A DNA stretch of 64,000 nt from an uncultured Paracoccaceae bacterium. GTDB taxonomy: Bacteria > Pseudomonadota > Alphaproteobacteria > Rhodobacterales > Rhodobacteraceae. Shown one piece after another: positions 60,825 through 64,000 of the stretch. Within the stretch, counting starts at the first letter, position 1; the number at the start of each line of letters is the position of its first letter. Where the stretch lies: contig CANMKS010000001.1 of the NCBI GenBank assembly GCA_947498645.1, positions 3,138,032 to 3,202,031 on the forward strand, written 5' to 3'. The notes below the pieces were generated by a model. That model was not told the DNA's origin, did no database searches, and worked only from the letters and a program-made list of their open reading frames with translations. A program made the position numbers and the translations under genes.

Positions 60825-60952
60825 GAGAGAACCTCGAGTTTCAAAAGTGTCTAAATTCCTACCACCATCTGGCACGTTTTGGGCAAAGCGCAAGGGTTGG
60901 GAAACAGATGCTCAAAAATGCAACAGATTGATGACGTTAGGTCAGCAGAGCT

Positions 60953-60969
60953 TATGCATTTTCTGCATA
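60953..60969. promoter_or_regulatory. inverted repeat TATGCA-N5-TGCATA
   Basis: Perfect 6-bp arms in the divergent gap between mrp and the DUF1127 gene, of the size and form bound by LysR-type regulators. No cognate regulator gene is adjacent. Confidence 0.35.
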
Positions 60970-60990
60970 GCAGCATTGCCAAAACGATCA

Positions 60991-61016
60991 TTGTGCAGTT
61001 GCAGCATAATCATACA
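60991..61016 (+). promoter_or_regulatory. possible RpoH-type promoter of the DUF1127-sRNA unit
   Basis: TTG at 60991 and CATACA at 61011-61016, 17 bases apart, resemble the TTG-N17-(C)xTAxx form used by RpoHI/RpoHII in Rhodobacter. Proposed only because the Rhodobacter counterpart is RpoH-driven. A start about 50 bases before the ATG would follow. Confidence 0.3.
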
Positions 61017-61073
61017 TGTTACCGGCAACAGGATGAAATACATCATCCGACCGACACGAAAAGAGACGAGCAC

Positions 61074-61289
61074 ATGACATATAGTACACACACAGGTTTT
61101 GCAGGTTTCTCACTTGGACAGCGCTTTGCCGCATTCCGGGCTGATCTGGCGGAGAACGCCGCGAAACGCAAAGTCTACCGCACAACGCTTGCCGAGTTGG
61201 AAAGCCTTAGCAATCGCGACCTTGGCGATCTGGGTATTTCCCGCAGCGCGATCAAAGCAATCGCGTTTGAGGCCGCCTACGGCGCTTAA
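61074..61289 (+). CDS. DUF1127 small basic protein (CcaF1-like)
   Basis: 71 aa from ATG 61074. DUF1127 signature in the second half: TLAELESLSNRDLGDLGISR (residues 42-61) followed by an AIKAIAFEAAYG tail. In Rhodobacter sphaeroides a DUF1127 protein, RSP_6037 or CcaF1, is encoded directly upstream of the CcsR small RNAs and binds RNA. Here, too, a run of CCTCCTCCC hairpins starts 13 bases after the stop, so the protein is probably the orthologue or a functional match. Confidence 0.88.
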   Translation: MTYSTHTGFAGFSLGQRFAAFRADLAENAAKRKVYRTTLAELESLSNRDLGDLGISRSAIKAIAFEAAYGA

Positions 61290-61301
61290 ATCTGGAACTT
61301 T

Positions 61302-61334
61302 GGATCTGTCGCCTCCTCCCCCTTAGACAGATCC
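61302..61334 (+). ncRNA. CCUCCUCCC hairpin 1 (CcsR/cuckoo type), single
   Basis: GGATCTGTC pairs with GACAGATCC (9 bp). The loop carries CCTCCTCCC at 61312-61320. It begins 13 bases after the DUF1127 stop and has no obvious hairpin partner of its own, unlike the later ones. Confidence 0.8.
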
Positions 61335-61341
61335 GAACGAC

Positions 61342-61424
61342 GACCCGATACCGCACCTCCTCCCGTGGTTTTGGGTCACCAGAAAGGTGGCGGCATCCAC
61401 CTCCTCCCGGATGCCGCCACTTTT
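61342..61424 (+). ncRNA. CCUCCUCCC double-hairpin RNA, unit A
   Basis: Hairpin 2 (61342-61377) pairs GACCC/GGGTC and ACCGC/GTGGT with the motif at 61356-61364 in the loop. Hairpin 3 (61387-61420) has a perfect 12-bp stem, GTGGCGGCATCC/GGATGCCGCCAC, the motif at 61400-61408 in the loop and TTTT after it, so it also acts as terminator. Two hairpins showing the motif are the hallmark of the cuckoo/CcsR family. Confidence 0.85.
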
Positions 61425-61428
61425 CAAA

Positions 61429-61513
61429 ATCAGTTTCGGGACCGCCCACCTCCTCCCAGGTTGGAACCGATGATACCGCAGGCAAGCGCACCTCCTCCCG
61501 CGCGAGTCCTGCG
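61429..61513 (+). ncRNA. CCUCCUCCC double-hairpin RNA, unit B
   Basis: Hairpin 4 (61429-61474) is weak: short stems ATCA/TGAT, TCGG/CCGA and GACC/GGTT, motif at 61449-61457. Hairpin 5 (61477-61513) pairs CGCAGG/CCTGCG and GCGC/GCGC with the motif at 61491-61499. No T-run follows, so this unit must be released by processing. Confidence 0.75.
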
Positions 61514-61518
61514 AGGAC

Positions 61519-61607
61519 GCGCTTACTCCCCCTCCTCCCTTTAGGAGTAGGCGCCGATCAATAAAGACGGTCATGCCCACCTCCTCCCGGGCATGGCCGT
61601 TTTTTTG
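61519..61607 (+). ncRNA. CCUCCUCCC double-hairpin RNA, unit C
   Basis: Hairpin 6 (61519-61554) has an 11-bp stem, GCGCTTACTCC/GGAGTAGGCGC with one G-U pair, motif at 61531-61539. Hairpin 7 (61567-61600) has a 12-bp stem, motif at 61580-61588, and seven T after it. This closes the whole transcript. Confidence 0.85.
61567..61607 (+). terminator. final strong intrinsic terminator of the DUF1127-sRNA unit
   Basis: ACGGTCATGCCC pairs with GGGCATGGCCGT (one G-T pair), followed by TTTTTTT. It separates this transcript from the convergent nsrR gene. Confidence 0.9.

Positions 61608-62713: not shown

Positions 62714-64000
<1,287 letters not shown>

Follow-up and report, generated by a model that had tools for sequence, protein, structure and literature searches.

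A CcaF1-CcsR-type operon with seven hairpins and a conserved promoter box in a marine-type bacterium

Introduction

When hairpins that carry one and the same loop motif line up behind a gene for a small DUF1127 protein, three questions arise: what kind of locus this is, which of its features are ordinary for that kind, and what is likely to control it. In Rhodobacter sphaeroides, as described in the available text of PMC10253847, ccaF1 and CcsR1-4 are co-transcribed from an RpoHI/HII promoter, processed by RNase E and closed by a 3' terminator, and CcaF1 is an RNA-binding protein that influences the maturation of the CcsR RNAs. RNAs with three and four CCUCCUCCC hairpins were part of a 2011 description (excerpt of PMC3927594), and in Sinorhizobium meliloti an identical loop motif silences ntrB through pairing, in trans (excerpt of PMC10746234). 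The locus considered here lies in a 64-kb stretch of DNA, called the window throughout, to whose positions the coordinates refer. It is a real, conserved and clean example of a known operon type in a marine-type bacterium; what is new is its conserved promoter box and the likely regulator of that box, rather than the number of its hairpins.

Anatomy and class of the array

The upstream gene of the operon (61074-61289, + strand) is ccaF1-like, encodes 71 amino acids and matches the DUF1127 family (PF06568) with an E-value of 6.5e-10 and 39 bits. Its end is separated from the stem of hairpin 1 by 9 nt. Seven exact copies of CCTCCTCCC follow on the + strand, spaced 44, 44, 49, 42, 40 and 49 nt apart, and the window holds no other exact copy; none of 100 dinucleotide shuffles of the window reached seven (mean 0.45, largest 3). 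For the interval 61287-61607 the fold energy is -146.2 kcal/mol, where 100 shuffles average -94.35 (sd 5.17; z -10.03), and the fold shows seven hairpins on the + strand: hairpin 1 at 61299-61337 (motif at 61312), hairpin 2 at 61342-61377 (61356), hairpin 3 at 61382-61425 (61400), with the strongest stem and a short TTTT, hairpin 4 at 61429-61474 (61449), with the weakest stem, hairpin 5 at 61477-61513 (61491), hairpin 6 at 61519-61554 (61531) and hairpin 7 at 61563-61604 (61580), with a T-run. An earlier sequence-only reading of this DNA had placed a DUF1127 gene before seven such motifs at these positions, 40-49 bases apart, and all of this stands. It had further put the motif in every loop, which holds for six of the seven hairpins in the minimum-energy fold, where open loops contain the motif; in hairpin 4 the motif is partly paired.

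That reading had also assigned the locus to the CcsR/cuckoo class and proposed a covariance search with the cuckoo RNA model as a check. The three-hairpin Rfam model ar14 (RF02344, cut-off 58.8 bits) matches twice, over hairpins 1-3 (61295-61424, 67.4 bits) and over hairpins 5-7 (61471-61604, 59.9 bits), and together with the covarying stems described below this bears the assignment out. The identification of the locus as a CcaF1-CcsR operon (CIN1, cuckoo, Rfam ar14), a type already known, is thus largely right. Since the two matches leave hairpin 4 between them, a layout of 3+1+3 fits better than the single hairpin plus three pairs that had been suggested; the latter was rejected, as two three-hairpin units flank one extra hairpin.

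Set beside its known relatives, the locus shares with ccaF1-CcsR1-4 (CIN1) of R. sphaeroides a 71-aa DUF1127 gene, CCUCCUCCC hairpins behind it on the same strand and a 3' terminator (PMC10253847, in the text available), but differs in having seven hairpins in the 3+1+3 arrangement. With ar14/NfeR1 of S. meliloti it has in common the three hairpins with CCUCCUCCC loops and a TGCA-N6-GCAT promoter site. NfeR1, however, is according to the excerpted PMC10746234 a free-standing RNA of 123 nt with a CTTAGAC-N17-CTATAT promoter of its own, whereas here two ar14 units and an extra hairpin would share a predicted transcript with a DUF1127 gene.

A further element, GAGGA, complementary to the loops, is present in the linker between hairpins 5 and 6 (window ~61511-61517) and in 32 of 36 arrays; from its sequence, it is a possible site of internal pairing or cleavage.

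Copy number, conservation and covariation

Conservation was assessed in 41 loci, of which five come from named public contigs and the other 36 represent one genome of the genus each, that of this bacterium among them; up to two mismatches were tolerated in building the chains. An unbroken chain of exactly seven hairpins was found in 37 of the 41, or in 38 if L021 is counted, in which seven hairpins are joined by a chance eighth match. Of the remaining three, L024 lacks the motif in hairpin 2 although the stem is still there, L026 has preserved stems 4 and 5 under changed loops, and L052 (G001) does not represent the same locus. In the 38 arrays the motif is exact in 24, 31, 35, 37, 36, 9 and 36 cases for hairpins 1 to 7 respectively, TCTCCTCCC taking its place in hairpin 6 in 28 of them. 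Across the family, 218 of 295 genomes hold pairs of exact motifs 28-56 nt apart; among the 260 of good quality the figure is 200, and single genomes have between 0 and 25 such pairs. Thirty loci returned from the 218 matching genomes, each from another genus, have main arrays of 2-26 exact motifs, figures that are lower bounds because array ends may be cut. The largest (L073, G224:C1 from ~334949) has 26 exact copies of CCTCCTCCC, organised as three-hairpin units that recur with spacings of about 42, 47 and 51. Seven copies are therefore ordinary, as both the 38 of 41 loci and the range in other genera indicate, and copy number was rejected as a peculiarity of this locus, although it had earlier been singled out as uneven.

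The stems were compared in an alignment (A1) of 36 arrays, the 38 with seven hairpins less two: L041, omitted by choice, and L021, whose chain the chance match had brought to eight. Changes on both sides occur in 60 of 92 base pairs, 86.1% of cells can pair, and the sequence-only reading's expectation that compensating changes would preserve the stems is borne out: covariation is 0.303 against 0.187 in shuffled alignments, none of 500 shuffles scores as high, and partners slid along the alignment give at most 0.107, with the caveats that relatedness can beat shuffles in the absence of structure and that taking the structure from a single member favours the unslid version. Parts of hairpin 2 (58.5% of cells) and hairpin 4 (50.3%) are the weakest helices, and hairpins 2 and 6 are poorly aligned in A1. 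The loop motif is kept while the stems around it vary, and the stems covary.

Short additional loci with two exact motifs are found away from the main array in four genomes of the genus (L053 in G003, L054 and L055 in G028, L056 in G035 and L059 in G032). The different locus L052 (G001:C81, array strand, ~1600-1700) appears, from reading the sequence, to comprise one CCTCCTCCC hairpin and a terminator-like stem between phasin-like and PhaR-like open reading frames.

Termination

Hairpins 3 and 7 had both been read as intrinsic terminators, and comparison upholds this for hairpin 7 and not for hairpin 3. A T-run of 5-8 follows the motif of hairpin 7 within 34 nt in all 38 arrays, and judged by sequence hairpin 7 is the conserved 3' terminator of the operon. 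At hairpin 3 the longest T-run is 3 in 27 arrays, 2 in six, 4 in three and 5 in two; the window, with TTTT, is among the five of 38 with a run of at least 4, and hairpin 3 was accordingly rejected as a conserved terminator, its possible role being that of a partial stop or a processing barrier. The suggestion of a new mix of termination and processing leaned on a terminator at hairpin 3, which relatives do not preserve in the form of a long T-run. A terminator scan of the + strand reported neither hairpin; it permitted loops of up to 8 nt, and theirs are longer.

A conserved box in the promoter

The DUF1127 gene is linked to the array in 34 of the 36 genus loci, and a divergent mrp gene is likewise found in 34 of 36; the Rrf2 gene of the window recurs in two of 36. 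A crude text pattern detects DUF1127 genes at 26 of the 30 other-genus arrays.

Alignment of the 200 bases 5' of DUF1127 from 42 loci revealed a conserved block. A 25-nt promoter element, ATGCANNTNCTGCATNGCNGCAWTG, lies at 60954-60978 on the + strand; with at most one mismatch it is present in 55 of 56 genus genomes (the sole exception is G020), and a reversed-pattern control gives 0. The last 15 nt (60964-60978) resemble the binding motif of VtlR. In this 15-nt form, TGCATNGCNGCATTG, roughly 100 nt upstream of DUF1127, the box extends beyond the genus: within 700 nt upstream of 30 other-genus arrays it occurs with no mismatch in 14, one in 11, two in two and three to four in three. It is thus found at up to two mismatches in 27 of 30 loci, in all 27 in the orientation of the array, and is missing at that level in three. 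Control stretches downstream contain it at up to two mismatches in one of 28 (L087, one mismatch), and among 20 shuffles made for each other-genus locus, with single-base content preserved, the closest lies 2-4 mismatches away. A looser search of the bacterium's own genome, at two mismatches, returned 221 places against 29 in the control, too many for use.

Past the box lies a putative core promoter, TTGTGC-N16-TACATG (60991-61018, + strand), and TTGTGC is found 12-13 nt beyond the box in 26 of 28 loci, the window among them. A promoter scan found no match to the sigma-70 consensus. The form TGCA-N6-GCAT, given for the LsrB site in the NfeR1 promoter (PMC10746234, in excerpt), occurs twice on the + strand of the window, the second instance (60994-61007) overlapping the putative core promoter.

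Read as its reverse complement, CAATGCTGCTATGCA, the box shares 13 of 15 positions with CAATGCAGCCATGCA, the motif given for VtlR binding in the available text of PMC12595884. A score of 13 is attained nowhere else in the window, and both differing positions are free positions of the core. The placement of this VtlR-like candidate box before a DUF1127 gene recalls the Rhizobiales: VtlR activates three Brucella DUF1127 genes (PMC12595884) and, in Agrobacterium, their ortholog atu1667 (PMC7486931), both statements from partial texts. The position is similar too, the box falling at -61 to -47 relative to a transcription start that we infer near 61025, and the LsrB site in PabcR1 at -61 to -49 (PMC8844928, in the portion available). 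Against these similarities to the VtlR/LsrB regulon stand the host order, which is Rhodobacterales, the short VtlR/LsrB consensus GCAT-N3-TG-N3-T, which is missed in the window, and a candidate regulator with an overall identity to LsrB of only 40%.

Away from the array locus the 25-nt element occurs at 13 sites in the genus. Four precede an open reading frame with a Pfam DUF1127 match (L157, L159, L164, L166), three a similar small open reading frame that Pfam does not match to DUF1127 (L155, L156, L161) and one a small open reading frame with no match (L162); two have nothing clear downstream (L158, L163), one (L160 2046-2149, G031:C1:510545) lies 103 nt before a thiolase gene, and the remaining two are followed, at a distance of about 160 nt, by a DUF1127 match.

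A candidate regulator

The genome has 25 LysR-domain hits, 24 of them over the cut-off, and one, L180, is the closest of the 25 to LsrB of A. tumefaciens (PDB 9HH1, so named in the available text of PMC11975290), with 40% identity over 296 residues and 241 bits. In the DNA-binding part the identity rises to 77% over 64 residues, and the next hits to LsrB by score reach 134 bits (29%), with 49% in that part. Agrobacterium LsrB is in turn the best solved relative of L180, and among the 120 relatives listed of 8000 identity is 87-100%, many of them being named Yoonia. Calling L180 LsrB-like is a statement of sequence similarity only. An AbcR-like RNA (RF00519), sought as a lead to an adjacent LysR gene, was not found at the cut-off of its model.

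Taken with the box, this gene points to an LsrB/VtlR-like LysR protein, acting at 60954-60978, as the probable regulator of the operon. The literature search, within the partial texts that it covers, returned no paper linking CcsR or ccaF1 to LsrB/VtlR; RSP_6037 and LsrB co-occur in the accessible text of PMC12501420, where LsrB is named a single time, among the references. LsrB is called unique to Rhizobiales in the excerpted PMC11975290, whose tree includes free-living R. sphaeroides and C. crescentus. A broader proposal, which we advance tentatively and hold to be slightly less than an even chance, is that the DUF1127-cuckoo operons of Rhodobacteraceae form an ancient LsrB/VtlR-type LysR regulon, in which a LysR lineage described as restricted to Rhizobiales would switch on a small protein of RNA-binding type together with an anti-Shine-Dalgarno array, hairpin number (2 to 26) serving as an evolutionary dosage dial.

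Alternative explanations

The box could belong to another protein. One candidate is PhaR, which responds to PHB and has TGC-rich sites; the operon would then be the same, and would follow carbon storage rather than an LsrB-like signal. The genome encodes phaR, the phaP promoter has ATGCTGCAGYGCAGCAT-like sites, the loose PhaR consensus of B. diazoefficiens, NGCN3GC[GA]N3 (PMC10888616, available text), fits the box exactly on both strands, and one copy of the element stands before the thiolase gene in G031. The stricter S. meliloti core YGCRNYGCR (excerpt of PMC12542648) is, however, not found in 60940-61030, a purine replaces the pyrimidine that this core requires in 27 of 28 array-linked boxes, and two traits of the box, its conserved ATTG end and its tendency to stand before DUF1127 genes, fit VtlR and not PhaR; judged on sequence, PhaR control is unlikely but a serious competitor. 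A somewhat better case, though still a doubtful one, can be made for RpoHI/RpoHII as the main control, as in R. sphaeroides, with the box as an accessory element or the site of another protein. Such a promoter is reported for ccaF1-CcsR (PMC10253847, in part), and for a related DUF1127 gene a -35 TTG and a -12 TAT are reported to suffice (PMC10673084, in part); the TTG at 60991 in the window fits the -35 position, and TTGTGC is conserved past the box. Yet TACATG stands in place of TAT at the -10 position of the window, and conservation of the promoter reaches well 5' of any sigma-factor site. RpoHI/HII control is compatible with the sequence of the promoter region.

A different objection concerns the RNA itself: the hairpins might serve the DUF1127 mRNA alone, through 3' stability, termination or as a landing site for the DUF1127 protein, and lack targets in trans. 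They do sit in the DUF1127 3' UTR, and CcaF1 is an RNA binder with an influence on CcsR maturation (PMC10253847, in the text available). One relative separates the two components. In G007 (L009), a tblastn search of the interval from mrp to the array detects no DUF1127, and the promoter block runs straight into hairpin 1 (G007:C8, 1404-1530), followed by seven motifs, all exact; DUF1127 is matched at two other places in the genome. Because this relative lost the gene and kept promoter and array, the hairpin RNAs seem, from sequence, to be under selection that does not need the DUF1127 protein in cis, and G007 offers a means of separating protein function from RNA function. Given in addition that the loop motif is retained while stems change, and that in S. 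meliloti this motif works in trans (excerpt of PMC10746234), a role confined to the DUF1127 mRNA is very improbable.

A model of operon function

We consider it likely that the locus is a CcaF1-CcsR-type operon in which a single transcript, holding DUF1127 and seven hairpins, is processed into small RNAs that pair with Shine-Dalgarno sequences, under probable LsrB/VtlR-like control. A signal would act through the upstream box (60954-60978) and the adjacent TTG-type core promoter, which might be readable by RpoH or RpoD. From this one promoter a transcript of the small DUF1127 protein and the seven hairpins would be made, ending at hairpin 7. By analogy with R. sphaeroides, this transcript would be a substrate of RNase E, aided by the DUF1127 protein. 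The small RNAs so released would display up to seven anti-Shine-Dalgarno seeds in their loops, imitating the ribosomal sequence that docks mRNAs, and may silence messages by pairing with their Shine-Dalgarno sequences. Many near-identical seeds would confer redundancy and dosage.

In a bacterial family of this size, the conserved box gives a cheap and specific handle on the control of DUF1127-cuckoo operons, and would connect work on CcsR in Rhodobacter with work on LsrB/VtlR in Rhizobiales; the range of 2-26 copies makes the dosage of anti-Shine-Dalgarno seeds testable.

Copies of the loop complement, GGGAGGAGG, were counted as well. The bacterium's own genome has one outside the array against 6 for a reversed-pattern control, and G007 has 22 in all, 7 of them in the array, with a control of 6. 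A general avoidance of GGGAGGAGG was rejected, as several relatives exceed their controls. The only other occurrence of the 9-mer on either strand of the own genome (L060, ~2018-2039; G000:C1:2974328-2974336) reads, on the other strand, as GGGAGGAGG; it lies where a DUF2189 gene starts and overlaps the last part of an amidase-like open reading frame. By its sequence, the start of the DUF2189 gene is a possible perfect target of the array loops.

Downstream of the operon, window positions 62786-63928 match 2-trimethylaminoethylphosphonate dioxygenase TmpA with 594.9 bits (cut-off 400).
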